From contig CAIRGO010000018.1 in NCBI GenBank assembly GCA_903878115.1, positions 1-60,178 of the forward strand: a DNA stretch of 60,178 nt. Direction: 5' to 3'. Under the pieces are notes generated by a model. The model had not been told where the DNA came from. It saw only the letters and a program-made list of their open reading frames with translations, and did no database searches. Shown piece after piece: positions 36,773 to 46,892 of this stretch; within the stretch, counting starts at the first letter, position 1, and every line of letters begins with the position of its first letter. Source of the stretch: Akkermansiaceae bacterium (GTDB lineage: Bacteria; Verrucomicrobiota; Verrucomicrobiia; Verrucomicrobiales; Akkermansiaceae). A program made the position numbers and the translations under genes.

Positions 36773-36819
36773 GCGGGGCAACCTGCCACAGATTGGCGGT
36801 ATTTACAATAGAATTATAC

Positions 36820-36852
36820 AAAAAAATCCCGCCATTCCGCGGATTGGCGGGG
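36820..36852 (-). terminator. Rho-independent terminator after the aquaporin remnant
   Basis: On the minus strand CCCGCCA and TGGCGGG (36851-36845, 36834-36828) form a stem enclosing a second dyad ATCCGCGGAAT, followed by seven T. It is still intact 20 nt after the dead gene's stop, and lies 48 bp upstream of the PPIase start. Confidence 0.8.
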
Positions 36853-36871
36853 TTGAGGAAAATAACGCAGA

Positions 36872-37099
36872 TTATTGATCTGTGGGATTGACCGTTTTAA
36901 ACACCATCGCAACCATCGTCGCACCGATGATCTGCGGCAACAGATAAATCCAGCAGTCAGCAACTTTTAGTTTGTCGATCACCATCAACATGGCGCAGAT
37001 GGCAAATGGTGCAAATTGACCGCCGCCTTAAACCGCCGCAGTGGCGATCGTGACAGTGAAAAAAAATGTATCCATGAATTCAGGTATAGATTTGTTCAT
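36872..37099 (-). pseudogene. Aquaporin/MIP-family gene remnant with internal deletion
   Basis: In one minus-strand frame from the ATG at 37099, the first transmembrane segment (IPEFMDTFFFTVTIATAAV) meets a TAA. After GGG the frame continues with FAPFAICAMLMVID, which fits transmembrane segment 2. Then at once WIYLLPQIIGATMVAMVFK with VNPTDQ, which fits the last segment. Both NPA boxes and about 130 central residues of a normal 230-residue channel are missing. Stop codon plus deletion make the gene dead. Its terminator survives. Family call is from pattern only. Confidence 0.65.
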
Positions 37100-37213
37100 A
37101 AGTAAGATTGGGTTGACCATGCTGTTATGAAGATGCCTAATCATGTATCAAGATGCAATCGATCTGAGCCATTACTCTATTGCCTATTGGCTCTTCCTTT
37201 GATCTATCATGAA

Positions 37214-37552
37214 TTAGTGAGAAGAGCTTTGCGGCGGCGGCATTCGTTTCACAATTTTCACTTTCGTGCTATCAGCAAATGCATCTGTATGCGCCATAGT
37301 GCCAGTGCTGGGCATGCTCACCTGAGTAAGTGAAGTGCAACGACGAAATGCATCAGGTCCAAGTTTCACCAATGAATCGGGTAGGGTCACATTGGGCAGG
37401 GATACGCAGTGCTCGAATGCGCTGGCTTCGATGTGTTTTAGCGTATTTGAAAAAGAAACATTTTCCAATTGTGTGCAGTATTCGAAAGTATGGTGCTCTA
37501 TGGTTTCCACTTTTCCTCCGATGTCAATACTCTTGAGGGCGCGACAACACGG
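37214..37552 (-). pseudogene. Leucine-rich-repeat (BspA/LRR_5) protein fragment
   Basis: The frame is open from just after a stop at 37553 to 37214. Repeats of the LRR_5 type follow each other about every 23 residues: CRALKSIDIGGKVETIEHHT, YCTQLENVSFSNTLKHIEAS, HCVSLPNVTLPDSLVKLGPD and RCTSLTQVSMP. The repeat pattern continues upstream of the only usable start (GTG at 37510) right to the stop, and no signal peptide is present, so the 5' part of a larger surface-protein gene is lost. A weak LRR-like segment (VKGVRIPDE) further upstream in another frame may be more of it. Confidence 0.65.
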
Positions 37553-37729
37553 CTATTTGCTAGAGACGAGCGACTCAGTTCCACGAGGAAATCAGCAACA
37601 AAAACATTCTTTCATCGGGAATTCTTACACCCTTGACCGCTACCAAAAATAGGCATTTTGAAAAAATGTCAAAATTCTTTGTTTTAGGGACTTGTCAGCG
37701 GCCATCTGCAAGCTACTTTGGGTCTGCGC

Positions 37730-38599
37730 ATGAAAATATGGTTGGATGAAAAATTGGTGGATGAGCAAGATGCAAAAGTCTCAGTGTTTGATCACGGTCT
37801 GCTTTACGGTGATGGAGTATTTGAAGGCATTCGCTTTTACAATGGTCGTGTTTTTCGCTTGGAAGAGCATATCAAAAGATTATTCGATTCCGCACGTGCG
37901 ATCGTTCTAAAACTTCCTTGGACTCGCGAACAAGTCTGCCAATTCACCGTCGATACCATCAAAGCAAATGGTCTGAAGGATGGCTATGTGCGCTTGGTCA
38001 TAACACGCGGCACAGGCGGCCTTGGCTTGAATCCTTATCTGTGCGAACGCCCCAGCATGTTTATCATCGCTTCTACGATTAGCCTCTATCCAGAAGAGTA
38101 TTATCAAAATGGATTACCGATTATCACTTGTGCTACTCGCCGTCCTGCACCAGCAGCTTTGATGCCTCAGGTGAAGTCATTAAATTACCTTAATAACATC
38201 ATGGCAAAAGTAGAAGCCATTCAGGCAGGTGCCATGGAAGCGGTGATGCTCAATGAACAAGGCTACGTTGCCGAGTGCACTGGAGATAATCTTTTCCTCA
38301 TAAAAAATGGCAAACTGCTAACCCCGCCCGTCGCCGATGGCGCGCTCGATGGCGTGACACGCCAAGTCATTTTCGAATTAGCTGACCAACTAGGCATTCC
38401 ATGGGTCGAACAAACTCTCACTCGCTATGACATTTATATCGCAGATGAATGCTTCCTCACGGGAACAGCTGCAGAAGTGATCCCCGTGATTTCGTTAGAT
38501 CGTCGCCCCATTGGCGATGGCATACCTGGCTCCTTTACCATTCAATTCATCAACGCCTTCCGCGCTCTTGCCAATTCTACTGGCACCCCCATTGTCTAA
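37730..38599 (+). CDS. ilvE: Branched-chain amino acid aminotransferase
   Basis: 289 aa from the ATG at 37730. Fold-type IV PLP enzyme. DHGLLYGDGVFEGIRFY near the start, the PLP lysine in QVKSLNYLNNIMAK (K149), and ECTGDNLFLIKNG followed by DGVTRQ which bind cofactor phosphate. FLTGTAAEVIPV closes the active site. It transfers amino groups for leucine, isoleucine and valine; D-amino acid or aminodeoxychorismate activity is less likely. Upstream of mcsA by 11 bp, so it may be the first gene of the mcsAB-clpC operon. Confidence 0.92.
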   Translation: MKIWLDEKLVDEQDAKVSVFDHGLLYGDGVFEGIRFYNGRVFRLEEHIKRLFDSARAIVLKLPWTREQVCQFTVDTIKANGLKDGYVRLVITRGTGGLGLNPYLCERPSMFIIASTISLYPEEYYQNGLPIITCATRRPAPAALMPQVKSLNYLNNIMAKVEAIQAGAMEAVMLNEQGYVAECTGDNLFLIKNGKLLTPPVADGALDGVTRQVIFELADQLGIPWVEQTLTRYDIYIADECFLTGTAAEVIPVISLDRRPIGDGIPGSFTIQFINAFRALANSTGTPIV

Positions 38600-38610
38600 C
38601 AATTTCCCTC

Positions 38611-39132
38611 ATGAACTGTGATTTTTGCGATCAGAAAGCTACCGTTTTCTTAACTCAGCTAATCGATGGACAGATGAAAAAAGTCTGTCTCTGCGAGAGC
38701 TGTGCCAAGGAAAAAGGAGTTACTGACCCCACAGGATTTTCGCTGGCCGATATGCTGCTGAGCGGCATTCCCACGAGTGCGCTGCCAAGCAATCCAACAT
38801 TTTCTTCGAAAAATCGCATCAGCAGTGGGAAAAAATGCCCTACTTGTGGATTCGGCGCAGACGATTTGAATCGCGTTCGCCGCTTCGGCTGCAGCGATTG
38901 TTTTCAAGCATTCCGTCCCGAGATTGATCTGATCCTGCGCGGCATGCACCAAGGCATAACTCATGTTGGGAAAGTGCCTAAAGGATTCGAGGAAATTCAT
39001 GCACGCGATGAAAAACTCGAAGAACTCCGCGCAAAATTAGAACTGGCAGTGCAACAGGAACACTACGAAGAGGCTGCCACATTGGTCGAACAAATCCGCC
39101 AACTGGAACAACCCTCCCCCTCTGCGCCATGA
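38611..39132 (+). CDS. mcsA: McsA-like zinc-finger protein, activator of McsB
   Basis: 173 aa from the ATG at 38611. Two zinc-binding modules, each with two CxxC pairs: CDFC with CESC near the N-terminus, and CPTC with CSDC around 80-105. The C-terminal UVR motif (LRAKLELAVQQEHYEEAATLVEQIRQL) is shared with UvrB/UvrC and ClpC. In Firmicutes McsA binds and activates the arginine kinase McsB. The next gene is mcsB, whose ATG overlaps the stop codon here, which supports the call. Confidence 0.9.
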   Translation: MNCDFCDQKATVFLTQLIDGQMKKVCLCESCAKEKGVTDPTGFSLADMLLSGIPTSALPSNPTFSSKNRISSGKKCPTCGFGADDLNRVRRFGCSDCFQAFRPEIDLILRGMHQGITHVGKVPKGFEEIHARDEKLEELRAKLELAVQQEHYEEAATLVEQIRQLEQPSPSAP

Positions 39133-40256
39133 TGCGATTTTCTACATTAATCAAACACCCTGCCGATTGGATGATCGGCGGTGAGGTGGATAATGCGGTG
39201 GTGCTTACCTCACGCATTCGCCTCGCGAGAAATATCCGTTCACTACCATTTCCCGGCTGGGCCACCAAGGAACAGCGCCGCCTAGCCATGGAGCAAATCC
39301 TGCCAGTGATCGAAAATATTCGCCCGATGAAGGATGCGTTTTCTCAGCAATTAAGCGGGCTTACCTCAGTGCAAAAACAAGTGCTCGTAGAACGCCATCT
39401 GATCAGCCGCGAACACGCAGCCCGCACCGATGGCAGCGCCGCAGTCATTGAGCGACGTCAATCTCTGAGCATCATGGTCAACGAGGAAGATCATTTGCGT
39501 CTGCAATCAATCCGTCCCGGCCTCAATCTTCGCGTGGCTTTTGATGCGTTGAATATCGTAGATGATGAAATTCAAGAAGCATTGCCCATCGCTTTTGACC
39601 GGAAACTAGGCTACCTCACCACTTGCCCTACCAATCTCGGCACTGGCTTACGCGCCTCCGCCATGCTTCATCTTCCTGGTCTTGTGATCAGCGATCAGAT
39701 TAGCCAAGTTCTCAATGCCGTTAATCGCATGGGACTCGCCGTGCGCGGGCTCTACGGCGAAGGCACTGAATCGTTAGGCAATCTCTATCAAATTTCTAAC
39801 CAATCGACGCTCGGTGAAAGCGAAACACAAATCATCGAACGCCTAGAACGAGTCATCACTCAAGTTGCCATGCATGAAGCGAACGCACGCTTGAAATTAC
39901 TCGAAGATAACCGTTTGATGCTTCATGATAAAATCGGCAGATCTTACGGCACACTGATGCACGCTTGGCTGATCGATTCGAAAGAAGCTCTGAATCACCT
40001 CTCGATCATTCGCCTTGGTGCCAATCTTGGCTTTTTCCCTCACGAGGTCTCTCACCTTTGCGATAGCTTGTTGATGGAAATCCAGCCCGCTCACTTACAA
40101 TTGCACAGTGGCAAAAAGCTCACGCCAGAGCAGCGCGACGAAAGCCGTGGACAAATTATTCGCTCGCATTTGCAAAAATTGCCAACCCCTGCTATGGTTT
40201 ACTCACAAACAAAAAATACAACGTATCCAGATCCACCCCTAGACCTTGATTTATGA
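39129..40256 (+). CDS. mcsB: Protein arginine kinase McsB
   Basis: 375 aa. Phosphagen-kinase fold: LTSRIRLARNI holds nucleotide-binding arginines, NEEDHLRLQ contains the catalytic acidic loop, and TCPTNLGTGLRAS contains the active-site Cys. The C-terminal EQRDESRGQIIR matches the RDxxRA site that binds phosphoarginine allosterically, with Gly for the final Ala. McsB marks damaged proteins with phosphoarginine for ClpC-ClpP. Its start and stop overlap the neighbours by 3-4 nt, so mcsA-mcsB-clpC is one translationally coupled unit. CtsR, the usual first gene in Firmicutes, is absent. Confidence 0.93.
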   Translation: MMRFSTLIKHPADWMIGGEVDNAVVLTSRIRLARNIRSLPFPGWATKEQRRLAMEQILPVIENIRPMKDAFSQQLSGLTSVQKQVLVERHLISREHAARTDGSAAVIERRQSLSIMVNEEDHLRLQSIRPGLNLRVAFDALNIVDDEIQEALPIAFDRKLGYLTTCPTNLGTGLRASAMLHLPGLVISDQISQVLNAVNRMGLAVRGLYGEGTESLGNLYQISNQSTLGESETQIIERLERVITQVAMHEANARLKLLEDNRLMLHDKIGRSYGTLMHAWLIDSKEALNHLSIIRLGANLGFFPHEVSHLCDSLLMEIQPAHLQLHSGKKLTPEQRDESRGQIIRSHLQKLPTPAMVYSQTKNTTYPDPPLDLDL

Positions 40257-42787
40257 ATAACTTTACTCCTAGAGCACAACAAGTCCTCGCACTCGCACGC
40301 AAGGAAGCCGATCGTTTCAGCCATAATTATGTTGGCACGGAACACATTTTGTTAGGCCTGATCAAACTTGGCCAAGGCGTGGCGGTCAATGTGTTAGAGC
40401 GCATGGGGCTAGACCTCGATAGCGTCCGCATCGAAGTAGAAAAAGAAGTCGGCACGGGCACCGCTGGACAGGCAGGAAATAATATCCCCTACACTCCACG
40501 TGTGAAAAAAGTACTCGCCCTCGCGAATAAAGAAGCCAAAGCGCTCAATCATTCCTACGTCGGCACAGAGCATATTCTACTTGGACTCTTGCGCGAAGGC
40601 GACGGCGTGGCGGCTCGTGTTTTACAAAAACTCAACGTCGACATTCAACGCACCCGCAACGAAATCCTCGCGGAAATTGATCCAAACTTCACCCCTACCG
40701 ATGACAGTGAAGAGAACGATGAAGAGGAAATCGATGACGATGACATCTTTGCCGAATCAGAAAAACAATCACCTACACAAGGTGATACGCCAGAAGGAAA
40801 GTCGAAAACTCCTGCGCTAAAAGCTTTTGGTCGCGATCTAACAAAAAGCGCTCGCGATGGCGATCTCGATCCTGTGATCGGGCGCGAAAGCGAAATCGAA
40901 CGTGTCATTCAAATTCTATGCCGACGCACCAAAAACAACCCTGTTCTCATCGGTGAAGCTGGTGTCGGCAAGACCGCTATCGCGGAAGGCCTAGCCCAAG
41001 AAATCGCCTCAGGCAATGTTCCGGAATTGCTCCGTGACAAACGCGTCATCACGCTCGACCTAGCTTTGATGGTAGCCGGCACGAAGTATCGCGGCCAGTT
41101 CGAGGAGCGCATCAAGGCGGTCATGGACGAAATTCGCAAAGTGAAAAATGTCATTCTTTTCATCGATGAACTCCACACCATCGTCGGCGCTGGCTCGGCA
41201 GAAGGTGCCATGGATGCATCGAACATCATCAAGCCAGCCCTCTCCCGCTCGGAGATGCAGTGCATCGGTGCGACCACTCTCAACGAATACCGCAAGTATA
41301 TCGAGAAAGATGCCGCCCTTGAACGCCGCTTTCAGCAAGTAAAAGTGGATGAACCATCACAGGAAGACGCCATCAAAATTCTTGAAGGACTACGCGGTAA
41401 ATACGAAGCGCACCACAAAGCACACTTCACCTCCGCTGCGATCGTCGCTTCGGTCAAACTTACATCGCGTTATCTCACAGGTAGATATTTACCCGATAAA
41501 GCCATCGACGTGCTCGATGAGGCTGGCTCGCGTGCACGCATCAGTCAAATGACCCGCCCACCTGCCATCAAGCAGTTAGAGGTGGACATTGAAGTCATCA
41601 ACAAAGACAAACTCACCGCCATCGCCGAGCAGGATTTTGAAAAAGCTGCCGCCATGCGCGATGCCGAGAAAAATGCCAAGAAAAAACTCGAAGATACACT
41701 CAAGGCATGGCGCGCCCAATCGGAAGAATCCATCATCGAGGTGGGCGAAGAAGACATCATGGCCGTCGTTTCCAAATGGACTGGTGTGCCGCTTCGTCGC
41801 ATGGAGGAAAAAGAAACCGAGAAACTCCTCAAAATGGAGCAAGAACTGCAAACCCGAGTGATCGGGCAAAACGAAGCAGTTCATGCCATTTCCAAAGCCC
41901 TGCGCCGTTCCCGCGCCGACCTGAAGGACCCACGTCGCCCAATCGGCTCGTTCCTTTTCCTCGGACCCACTGGTGTTGGCAAAACATACCTTGCCCGCAA
42001 TCTCGCTGAATTCATGTTCGGCGATCCAGAGGCGCTGATTCAAATCGATATGTCGGAATACATGGAGAAATTCACCTCCAGCCGCCTCATCGGTTCACCT
42101 CCAGGTTATGTCGGCTACGAAGAAGGTGGCCAACTTTCGGAAGCCGTTCGCCGTCGCCCGTATTCGGTGATTCTTTTTGACGAAGTGGAAAAAGCCCACC
42201 CCGATGTCATGAACCTGCTGCTCCAAGTGTTGGAAGAAGGCATGATCACCGATTCGTTAGGCAGAAAAATCGACTTCCGTAATACCATCATCATCCTCAC
42301 GTCTAATGCTGGAGCTTCGACGATCAAACGCCAAAGTACCCTCGGCTTTAACGCGATGACAGCTGATGAAGGAGACTTCTCATCGATGAAAGAAAAAATC
42401 GTCGAGGAAGCGAAAAAAGCCTTCAAGCCTGAATTCCTCAATCGTTTGGATGAACTCGTGGTGTTCCACATGTTAGAAAAACCAGACCTCTCACGCATCG
42501 TCGATCTGGAAATCAGCAAACTCGCCAAACGCCTCAAGGACAAATCCATTACCCTTGAACTTAGCGAACAAGCGCGTGATTTGCTAATCACCAAAGGCTA
42601 CGATCCTAGCTACGGTGCGCGCCCGATGCGTCGTGCTGTAGAACGTTACTTAGAAGACCCTCTCGCCGAGGCCCTTCTGCGTGGCGACATCAAAGAAGGT
42701 GACCACGTGGAAGCTATCCGCCGCGATAACAGCGATGATCTACTCTTCAACCCCACCCGCCCCGCTCTAGCAACCAACGAAGAGTGA
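40253..42787 (+). CDS. clpC: ClpC-type AAA+ unfoldase
   Basis: 844 aa. Two N-domain repeats ([11 protein letters not shown] at about 27 and 102) bind adaptors or phosphoarginine. A strongly acidic linker follows (about 148-175). AAA-1 has GEAGVGKT (234-241) and its Walker B LFIDELHT. The short coiled-coil middle domain carries a UVR-like motif ([18 protein letters not shown]). AAA-2 has [17 protein letters not shown] and the pore loop GYVGYEEGG. The loop STLGFNAMT is in the place of the ClpP-binding LGF loop. It unfolds proteins for ClpP in the cytoplasm. clpP is not in the window. Confidence 0.96.
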
Positions 42788-43089
42788 TAAATTCCACCCA
42801 CCCTGGAGTGCGGAAGGCTTGCCTCCGCCCTAGTAGATGAGGCTTGTCTTACGCGGGGGGGATTTTTTTCACCGCTAAGACACGAAGATTGCTAAGGTTT
42901 GAAGAAGAATTTTTAACAGAATTTGTTAGATGGCAAATGCTGCAACTTCCTCAGCCCCAAAGAGGGCGGAATTTGATAGCCCAATGTAGCGCGCTGGGTT
43001 ATAAGCCGCGCCATCCAACGGCGGGTAACGCTCCAGTTTGCATTCGGGCTTCCCTCTCCGCCGTGGATGAGCTAGACGTTGTGCACAAA
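42788..43089. repeat. Intergenic region with repeat-like palindromes
   Basis: No gene. A hairpin (GCGG AAGG/CCTCCGC, about 42810-42828) lies shortly after clpC, too weak in T residues to be a clear terminator. Then comes a tract CACCGCTAAGACACGAAG of a kind common in intergenic DNA of these bacteria. From about 42945 to 43060 several short dyads appear (TAGCCCA/TGGGTTA at 42977-43001). An open frame continues through it in phase with the next gene, but its translation (PQPQRGRNLIAQ) is of the kind produced by dispersed REP/RAYT-like repeats, so I do not count it as coding. Confidence 0.45.
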
Positions 43090-43434
43090 ATGAAGACAGA
43101 GCGCGATACATCATTCCGCTACTTTCCGTGGGACATCGCGTTCGCTAGCGGAATCCCGCTCGTCTTGCCCTTCCTGCTCTTGGCGGTTCTTCAAAGCGTT
43201 CCGAGTAGAGGTATCTTCATTTTAGTGATCCTCATTTCTTGCGTTGCGTTCGCGGGCGGCGTCGTGATGAGTTGGGCGAAGTTACCATTGTATCGGCAAG
43301 GTCGATTTCTGCCCCTCGGACACACAGGACTCGATGAGCGTGGCATCCGATTTTACAGGATAGGACTTCGACTGGCGATTCTTGGCCTCATCGCTCAATC
43401 GGTTTTTGTTTTAGTTCTCTGGATGCCGGGGTAG
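43090..43434 (+). CDS. Small membrane protein of unknown function
   Basis: 114 aa from the ATG at 43090; a longer frame back to 42844 crosses repeat-like DNA and is rejected. Three transmembrane helices: about 17-35 (FASGIPLVLPFLLLAVLQ), 40-60 (GIFILVILISCVAFAGGVV) and 92-112 (LRLAILGLIAQSVFVLVLW). No family recognised. Confidence 0.6.
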   Translation: MKTERDTSFRYFPWDIAFASGIPLVLPFLLLAVLQSVPSRGIFILVILISCVAFAGGVVMSWAKLPLYRQGRFLPLGHTGLDERGIRFYRIGLRLAILGLIAQSVFVLVLWMPG

Positions 43435-43480
43435 CCATGCAAGATCAAGAAGCTCAGGTTCAAAAACGAAGTGTAACAAC

Positions 43481-43861
43481 ATGAAATTATTCAGCCAACT
43501 CCTTGTAATTCCAGTGATTTTCACAGCAATTTATACTTACTTTAGCAATCAACCAACGATTTATAACAATGAACCGCAATGGATCGATCTCTCTGCTCCT
43601 AGGAGTGAGGCTATCCTGAATCCTGATAGTAATCGGGATTTTGTTATCCAGGTTAGGCCTTCAGGAATGAATACGGCACCTATGGGTATGCCTATCCCTG
43701 ATAATAATTTGGTGCTCTTTATTGAATATGGAGGTGTTCGATTTGAAGCCGATAAATCACTAACAACGGTGAACTATGTCGTGGATAAAACATTAACATT
43801 CACCATTTGGAATGGAAAATATTCAAACTGTTTTAAGGGTGCGTGGCCCAATTTCCGTTAA
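43481..43861 (+). CDS. Small exported protein of unknown function
   Basis: 126 aa. N-terminal hydrophobic segment (LLVIPVIFTAIYTYF) acts as signal or anchor. The rest is beta-rich and polar, without known motifs. It is AT-richer than its neighbours, like the DNA to its right. 46 bp after the small membrane protein gene and in the same direction. The 242 bp beyond it to rhaB show nothing recognisable. Confidence 0.5.
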   Translation: MKLFSQLLVIPVIFTAIYTYFSNQPTIYNNEPQWIDLSAPRSEAILNPDSNRDFVIQVRPSGMNTAPMGMPIPDNNLVLFIEYGGVRFEADKSLTTVNYVVDKTLTFTIWNGKYSNCFKGAWPNFR

Positions 43862-45605: not shown

Positions 45606-46892
45606 TTACGCAGCGTCCTCGCTGTTGTCACCGCGGCGTTTTTTGATGGTTGGTGGTTTTTCGCCCATCACGACTTGCTTGTTAATGGTGACCATTTCCA
45701 CATCGGTGCGGGAGGGGATTTCATACATCACATCAAGCATGATGCGCTCGAAAATGGAGCGCAGTGCGCGAGCGCCAGTGCCTCGTTTGATGGCTTCTTC
45801 GGCAAAAGCTTTCAATGCATCGCGAGTGATATTGAGCTTCACATTGTTGAGCGCGAGTTGCTTCGAATACTGTTTCACCAGTGCATTTTTTGGCTCGCTG
45901 AGAATGCTGATCAATTCCTCTTCTGTTAGTTTACGCAATGACGAAATGACTGGAAGACGTCCGATGAATTCAGGAATCAATCCATAGTGAAGCAGATCTT
46001 CTGGCAAAGTGAATTCTAACACATCTTTGTCAGCGTCGATCTGTGCATGGTTGCTGTCGCCAGTGTGGAAACCAAGGGTGTTTTTGCCAAGACGACGGCG
46101 GATTTTATCGTCTAGTCCCACAAAAGCTCCGCCACAAATAAAGAGAATTTTTTCGGTATTCACCTGAATGTATTCTTGTTGTGGATGCTTGCGTCCTCCT
46201 TGAGGCGGCACATTGCAGATGGTGCCTTCGAGAATTTTTAGCAATGCCTGCTGCACCCCTTCGCCCGAGACATCGCGGGTAATGGAAACATTTTCTGTCT
46301 TGCGACCGATCTTGTCGATTTCATCCACGTAAATGATCCCACGTTCTGCTTTGGCGATGTCAAAATCGGCCGCTTGGAGAAGTCGTAAAATGATGTTCTC
46401 TACGTCCTCGCCGACGTAGCCAGCTTCGGTAAGCGTAGTGGCATCGACAATGCAAAAAGGCACATCAAGAGTGCGGGCGAGCGAACGAGCCAGCAGGGTT
46501 TTTCCAGATCCCGTAGGGCCTAACAACAGCACGTTTGATTTTTCAATTTCCACGTCGGCATATTCTTCCGAGGCTGAAAGAGACGATTGATTCAAGCGTT
46601 GGTAGTGATTGTAAACTGCGACGGAAAGAACCTTTTTCGCTTGATCCTGCCCGATGACATGGAGATCGAGTTGAGCACGAATTTCGGCAGGGGTGGGAAG
46701 CGATTGCTTTTTGCCCTTGCCGTTTTTATTTTTGCTAGGATCGACGGCGCGTAGTTCTTTCTCAAGAATGGAAACGCAGAGCTCAACGCATTCATTGCAA
46801 ATGTATACGCCCGGACCAGCAATAAGTTTTTTCACTTCAGAATGGCCTTTGCCACAGAAGGAACACATAGATAAATTAGAAGCTCGAGCCAT
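45606..46892 (-). CDS. clpX: ATP-dependent protease ATP-binding subunit ClpX
   Basis: 428 aa. N-terminal zinc-binding domain (CSFCGKG and ICNEC). Walker A GPTGSGKT, the pore loop EAGYVGEDV, Walker [11 protein letters not shown], and the ClpP-binding loop in the form LGF ([10 protein letters not shown]) rather than the common IGF. Sensor 2 is in [11 protein letters not shown]. It unfolds tagged substrates for ClpP. clpP and tig, the common neighbours, are not here; ribE lies upstream and rhaB downstream. Confidence 0.97.

Follow-up and report, generated by a model that had tools for sequence, protein, structure and literature searches.

Why should a gene for a branched-chain aminotransferase (BCAT) head an operon for protein-arginine phosphorylation, in the position that ctsR, the gene of a repressor, takes in Firmicutes? 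The question is raised by a contig of an Akkermansiaceae bacterium, of which a stretch of 60,178 nucleotides (nt), hereafter the window, was analysed and which carries at 37730-42787 on the plus strand four co-directional open reading frames (ORFs), called in the order ilvE-mcsA-mcsB-clpC. We read this locus, with a probability of about 0.7, as an old and vertically inherited variant of mcsA-mcsB-clpC that begins with ilvE instead of ctsR and is vegetatively driven. It is a real variant of a known system.

Gene content and functional residues

The features on which the argument builds are the following.

37730..38599, plus strand: ilvE, class IV branched-chain aminotransferase (IlvE), 289 amino acids (aa), ATG start; assigned by family models
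38611..39132, plus strand: mcsA, 173 aa, ATG start; assigned by four CxxC motifs and a UVR-like C-terminus
39129..40256, plus strand: mcsB, predicted protein-arginine kinase, 375 aa; assigned by family models and alignment
40253..42787, plus strand: clpC, AAA+ unfoldase with two Clp_N repeats, two Walker A motifs and an LGF loop; assigned by Pfam and motifs
39129..39132, plus strand: ATGA stop/start overlap of mcsA and mcsB
40253..40256, plus strand: ATGA stop/start overlap of mcsB and clpC
40134..40148, plus strand: RDESR, McsB residues 336-340, putative phosphoarginine (pArg) receptor site; alignment, PMC8370763 and PMC7235348
40334..40345, plus strand: GTEH of ClpC N-repeat 1, pocket glutamate equivalent to E32; motif and PMC12583610
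40562..40573, plus strand: GTEH of ClpC N-repeat 2, pocket glutamate equivalent to E106; same basis
37691..37719, plus strand: promoter-like element CTTGTCA-N16-TACTTT, its -10-like hexamer 10 nt before the ilvE ATG; conserved upstream pattern

The original prediction of a phosphoarginine operon in an Akkermansiaceae-type bacterium of the PVC (Planctomycetes-Verrucomicrobia-Chlamydiae) group is borne out by gene content, gene order and residues. The tight coupling by ATG overlaps that it also proposed applies to the mcsA/mcsB and mcsB/clpC junctions but not to the first one, where ilvE and mcsA lie 11 nt apart without overlap.

IlvE scores above the cut-offs of the BCAT models PRK08320 (430.2 bits; cut-off 363) and ilvE_I (321.2 bits; cut-off 245.55), is covered by BCAT models from end to end with no additional domain, and matches the sequence of the structure 5mqz at 5e-95. 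It is the sole ilvE_I match found in its genome at E 1e-40. The other class IV aminotransferase encoded in the genome has aminodeoxychorismate lyase as its top model and stays under the cut-off of that model as well as under those of the 22 others listed.

McsB scores above the cut-off of PRK01059.1-4 (400.6 bits; cut-off 385), has 6fh1 as its closest solved structure (6e-83) and is 67-74% identical to its closest named relatives (loci L002-L013 and L022: Verrucomicrobiaceae, Akkermansiaceae, Prosthecobacter, Haloferula and one 'Verrucomicrobia'). The active site, comprising the catalytic cysteine (C166 here), NEEDH and conserved arginines, is invariant in 24 of 24 aligned McsB sequences drawn from Verrucomicrobiota, Omnitrophota, Lentisphaerae, Zixibacteria and Firmicutes, the first letters falling outside the invariant list, and the same is true of R336, D337 and R340 of the RDxxR pArg site. 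The catalytic cysteine of Bacillus subtilis McsB is C167 (PMC7235348); an inactive C167S variant, a pArg pocket at residues 337-342 and an R337A/D338A mutant have been described (PMC7235348, PMC8370763). From the conserved residues we infer that the McsB described here would be active as a kinase.

McsA carries four CxxC motifs and a UVR-like C-terminus that lies marginally under the Pfam cut-off. ClpC contains two AAA modules and the Pfam domains Clp_N (twice), AAA and ClpB_D2-small, and no NCBIfam model is over its cut-off among 25 of 41 matches listed. Its LGF loop is presumably of the ClpP-docking type. GTEH is retained in both N-repeats; according to PMC12583610, E32 and E106 are the pArg-pocket glutamates of ClpC and the published primers place both within GTEH. 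Preservation of RDESR and of the ClpC N-domains had been predicted and is confirmed. The genome further contains four low-molecular-weight phosphatase matches, one with the P-loop CTGNTCRSPMAE, which we take to be that of YwlE.

Age and spread of the ilvE linkage

The pairwise distances of IlvE and McsB are correlated (Mantel r 0.79, a value reached by 0 of 2000 permutations) over 89 loci plus the window, the set consisting of loci with long stop-free matches to both ilvE and mcsB; the 89 include L098, which is the window itself, and L185, which is from the same genome as L043. The best split of both trees separates the same two groups at 90/90 tips, within which r is 0.79 and 0.77; one of them, the Omnitrophota group, takes in L043, L045 and L059, which are not named Omnitrophota. 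Moreover, among 13 verrucomicrobial loci of 13 kb, ilvE was found in 10, mcsA in 13, mcsB in 13 and clpC in 10, and the genes that flank the operon in the window in only 0-2, from which we conclude that the linkage of ilvE is more than chance.

In Omnitrophota-type loci the gene order is lysS-lolC-lolD-ilvE-mcsA-mcsB-clpC-mla, and radA follows in those four for which the sequence is long enough. The lolD gene before ilvE is kept in four Verrucomicrobia loci, and L075 (Zixibacteria) and L077 (unplaced) have lysS-lolC-lolD-mcsA-mcsB-clpC without ilvE. The 29 ctsR-mcsA-mcsB-clpC loci of Firmicutes share with the window the order mcsA-mcsB-clpC and the active-site and pArg-site residues, and 25 of them share with the four Omnitrophota-type loci radA beyond clpC, whereas none has lysS or lolC. 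They differ from the operon described here in that the latter starts with ilvE, has a vegetative-type, apparently near-leaderless promoter and comes with neither a ctsR gene nor a CtsR operator that we could find. These arrangements would be read most simply as a single old mcsAB-clpC locus in which either ilvE or ctsR can stand first, ilvE having been gained or lost at the root. CtsR had originally been described as replaced by the aminotransferase. It is correct that ilvE occupies the ctsR position of the Firmicutes loci, but the implied loss of CtsR is not supported as worded, because two alternative first genes fit equally well or better.

How common is the arrangement? The 80 named loci, which are the best of 584 confirmed relatives, comprise 38 with ilvE, 29 with ctsR, 13 with neither and none with both. 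The gene lies upstream of mcsA in all ilvE loci except L038, in which it is upstream of mcsB and mcsA was not detected; five of the 13 'neither' loci (L003, L017, L024, L028, L064) have too little upstream sequence. Since the 29 ctsR loci represent one narrow Firmicutes group (Paenibacillus, Thermobacillus, Brevibacillus and one uncultured Paenibacillaceae), they show contrast, not breadth.

Within the phylum of the window McsB was matched in 204 of 213 genomes, and 61 of 115 genomes each have a single ilvE_I match over the cut-off, in some cases with further matches below it. By the coordinates of these two separate searches, ilvE ends 511-834 nt upstream of mcsB on the same strand, about one mcsA length, in 37 (own genome included) of the 54 genomes with both placed, seven of the 61 having no listed mcsB place and being left out. 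At the level of loci, ilvE stands before mcsA in 46 of 90 (L098, the window's own, included) from 25 of 40 family codes. Of these 90, 60 are regions chosen one per genus code from listed places, genera with a place near a contig start or low in the list being omitted (35 linked), and the remaining 30, taken automatically as best matches, extend about 0.95 kb beyond mcsA on its upstream side, so that absence is weaker evidence there (11 linked); the linked loci include L180 (f47), the ilvE match of which has an identity of only 40%. For the phylum to which L043 belongs, taken from synteny to be Omnitrophota, McsB was matched in 57 of 58 genomes and ilvE leads the mcsAB locus in 25 of 30 loci with 1.5-kb flanks, one of them nearly without upstream sequence. 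The ilvE-mcsAB arrangement recurs across Verrucomicrobiota and Omnitrophota, which goes beyond the first reading. We found no description of ilvE-mcsAB-clpC in the open-licence literature, with few subscription papers covered.

The locus also varies in other ways. Neither ilvE nor clpC lies in the stretch in 22 loci (families f9, f14, f19, f24, f39, f42 and f52). In L105, L108-L110 and L112 (f4) and L116 (f8), mcsB adjoins clpC with no mcsA or ilvE match 1.5 kb upstream, and McsA may there be lost, divergent or encoded elsewhere. McsB matches are weak (E about 1e-14 to 1e-66) in G005, G069, G105, G051, G137, G184, G193 and G201, all of genus g2 of the window's family, the sister genomes of which reach about 1e-140, and likewise in f21, f34 and part of f31; such McsB are truncated, decaying or divergent. 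In two Lentisphaerae-named loci and one Verrucomicrobia-named locus, a similar membrane-protein-like ORF of about 660 aa follows mcsA-mcsB on the same strand in the place of clpC (L037 7065-9032, L040 4315-6312, L072 4164-6131), and in one Omnitrophota locus an ORF of 1023 aa stands between mcsB and clpC (L056 7095-10163). In the window, clpX lies at 45606..46892 on the minus strand, about 3 kb downstream of the operon and opposite to it; no true clpX was found near the operon in the 13 related loci, two clpX matches falling within clpC.

Promoter-like element and search for stress regulators

The pattern CTTG[C/T]CA-N16-TAnnnT is present upstream of ilvE in all 11 regions compared (the window and ten close loci, about nine of them independent, as L005/L012 and L007/L008 are nearly identical pairs). 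It begins 39-46 nt before the ATG and leaves 10-17 nt between the -10-like hexamer and the start codon, a constancy which makes it unlikely that ilvE is a stray gene without its own promoter; the regions are divergent farther upstream. Genome-wide, there are 36 exact occurrences of the pattern as compared to 13 for a reversed-pattern control, so that perhaps a third of the occurrences are due to chance. For about ten of the 30 places inspected, an ORF of at least 100 aa starts 6-14 nt downstream. One copy has hisI downstream, and others are followed, as judged by eye from translations, by alanine racemase- and mannose-6-phosphate isomerase-like ORFs or, at 49-57 nt, by aconitase- and ribosomal protein S1-like ORFs; no chaperone gene was recognised by eye among the inspected places. 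A similar element, with N16 and then a TAGGGT-type hexamer, precedes carA in the window. Because the element also precedes housekeeping-like genes, the operon is probably expressed vegetatively, from a sigma-70-type promoter.

The ilvE mRNA is predicted to be near-leaderless. With the leader almost absent, there would be no room for an attenuator of the usual leader-based kind, and a riboswitch or other RNA leader was rejected as well, given the little space downstream of the promoter and the lack of any Rfam match at E 0.1 over 36800-43500. In the same genome ORF starts 6-9 nt after a -10-like hexamer recur (for example L218, L221, L228-L230 and L240), which suggests that near-leaderless mRNAs are made by this bacterium. 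Another candidate, which resembles a sigma-32 promoter and is situated at the 3' terminus of ilvE (CTTGCCA...CCCCCATTGT from 38567), was discarded since it overlaps the conserved last ilvE codons; by eye, CTTGCCA at this position is kept only in L010 among the relatives compared. A generic promoter scan found 9 promoters against a mean of 6.3 in shuffles, and the ilvE element was not among them.

A ctsR gene elsewhere, with operators upstream of ilvE, was looked for and neither was found. The Pfam models CtsR and CtsR_C gave only matches below cut-off in the window's own genome, a weak search in that its controls at E 0.01 detected Lactococcus and missed B. subtilis. A search with nine aligned CtsR sequences, eight from Paenibacillus and one from Thermobacillus, detected a held-out Brevibacillus genome at 3e-56 and found no CtsR in the own genome; in four further genomes it gave a single match with E 0.57 and an internal stop. 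By tblastn, CtsR had no match in the 90 verrucomicrobial or the 30 Omnitrophota-type mcsB loci. Across the phylum, Pfam CtsR, with its weak control, matched weakly in 2 of 194 genomes, once slightly over cut-off and together with its neighbours in a frame of 254 aa. A scan with what we take to be the CtsR operator consensus, a tandem heptad, revealed no site near the operon at up to 3 mismatches; in two control loci it detected perfect operators that precede the ctsR ORF by 49 and 54 nt.

HrcA was not found in the own genome by a search whose control was detected in 7 of 14 genomes. The RpoH model gave two sigma-70-type matches there, both under cut-off: one in a 712-aa frame, taken from its length to be RpoD, and one closest to RpoS. 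Given an assembly of 331 contigs and 95.3% completeness, the absence of CtsR and HrcA is strong but not absolute. With neither ctsR nor a CtsR operator nor hrcA found, the operon would be neither a CtsR-controlled class III heat-shock operon nor HrcA/CIRCE-controlled.

Alternatives and the place of IlvE

Several findings weigh against the reading that we favour. McsA remains under the cut-off of NF053706, its only NCBIfam match (E 4e-36, 124.4 bits; cut-off 210), and McsB under that of the McsB model NF053707 (364.7 bits; cut-off 500). The linkage is absent in 16 of the 54 genomes and undecidable in one more, G007, where mcsB is at a contig edge; besides G007, the 17 other genomes include eight from one genus of the window's own family, four of family f4 and four singles. 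In addition, whereas match-to-match gaps between ilvE and mcsA are 5-28 nt in many families, they amount to 147-654 nt in 11 linked f5 loci and to 292 nt in L096, from a genome of the window's family, which makes co-transcription doubtful there; a single shared transcript is thus not general, and linkage as seen in the gene maps extends wider than likely co-transcription. The remaining two points concern control. An imperfect inverted repeat (AAAAATAGGCATTTTGA/TCAAAATTCTTTGTTTT, 17 nt, 76%) at 37645-37685, immediately upstream of the ilvE promoter, could be an operator peculiar to the window. Finally, PMC8024496 reports that mcsB of Methylacidiphilum and the neighbouring Clp gene are induced on formic acid together with groEL and dnaK.

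These last two points lend themselves to the alternative that fares best, although we consider it improbable: an unrecognised stress-specific regulator, either a repressor near the -35 region or an RpoS-like sigma factor, would control the operon and ilvE would have been dragged into a stress regulon. The sigma factor closest to RpoS is in keeping with this, and the report on Methylacidiphilum argues that some stress control exists in a verrucomicrobium. Yet the promoter element is common to housekeeping-like genes, the repeat could not be made out by eye when the window was aligned with ten relatives, and neither RpoH over cut-off nor HrcA was found. Methylacidiphilum resembles the window in having mcsB and a Clp unfoldase gene of adjacent number (Minf_0242/0241; PMC8024496), but differs in the reported induction and in that the five f4 loci, taken as its family, show no mcsA or ilvE match 1.5 kb upstream.

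Could IlvE instead be a member of the pathway, either as a regulated client of McsB and ClpCP, like CtsR in Bacilli, or as an input linked to branched-chain amino acids or glutamate? Its position equivalent to that of ctsR, the single ilvE_I match over cut-off in every one of the 61 genomes having any, and the persistence of the linkage in two groups in which other neighbours are exchanged would all fit. However, the end-to-end match to BCAT models leaves no extra domain for such a role, and the linkage is missing from genomes that retain both genes, so that we regard membership as unlikely. The more far-reaching form of the idea, in which IlvE would hold the place of CtsR in the circuit throughout Verrucomicrobiota and Omnitrophota, either as a client of McsB/ClpCP or by providing a metabolic signal to which proteolysis is set, appears quite doubtful; if true, it would connect pArg-dependent degradation to the metabolism of branched-chain amino acids. 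An adjacency that is due to chance or peculiar to single genomes and has no evolutionary meaning, to which the loss of linkage in some close relatives might point, is very hard to reconcile with linkage in 37/54 genomes and 25/30 Omnitrophota-type loci, with correlated IlvE and McsB distances and with control neighbours in only 0-2 of 13 loci.

We therefore return to the old, vertically inherited and vegetatively driven variant. By analogy with the Bacillus system and from the conserved residues, McsA would activate McsB, and McsB would phosphorylate arginine residues in proteins that are damaged or have been selected; the resulting pArg mark would dock in the two ClpC N-domain pockets, ClpC would pass the marked protein to ClpP, and a YwlE-type phosphatase could erase the mark. 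In all likelihood the machine operates as it does in Bacilli. According to PMC10128030, Chlamydia trachomatis, a PVC relative, also has McsAB and ClpC, and its ClpC with ClpP1P2 degrades pArg-casein in vitro; mcsAB is described there as apart from clpC, whereas here they adjoin. Different from Bacilli, however, is the logic of expression, since searches for CtsR, for its operator and for HrcA found none of them. That regulation must differ had been anticipated, and the vegetative-type element and the almost absent leader agree with this; that substrates must differ holds only in so far as CtsR cannot be one and is not supported as worded for other McsB clients. A sigma-70-type promoter directly before the near-leaderless ilvE start would drive the operon, so that the proteolytic machine and the sole BCAT found in the genome would be produced jointly and in step with growth; stress control would operate chiefly at the level of McsB activity and not through removal of a repressor.

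The stable linkage of ilvE, the sole BCAT gene found, is real, and the position of ilvE is sufficiently explained if a quality-control operon is co-expressed with a housekeeping gene; the lack of linkage in lineages that retain both genes speaks for such convenient co-expression rather than for a function of IlvE in the pathway. The presence of McsB in 204/213 and 57/58 genomes of the two phyla, with no CtsR match in their 90 and 30 mcsB loci, suggests a kinase-protease core that is independent of the CtsR repressor. The group therefore offers a setting in which to ask what protein-arginine phosphorylation does without CtsR, and the ilvE linkage provides a testable pointer towards amino-acid metabolism.

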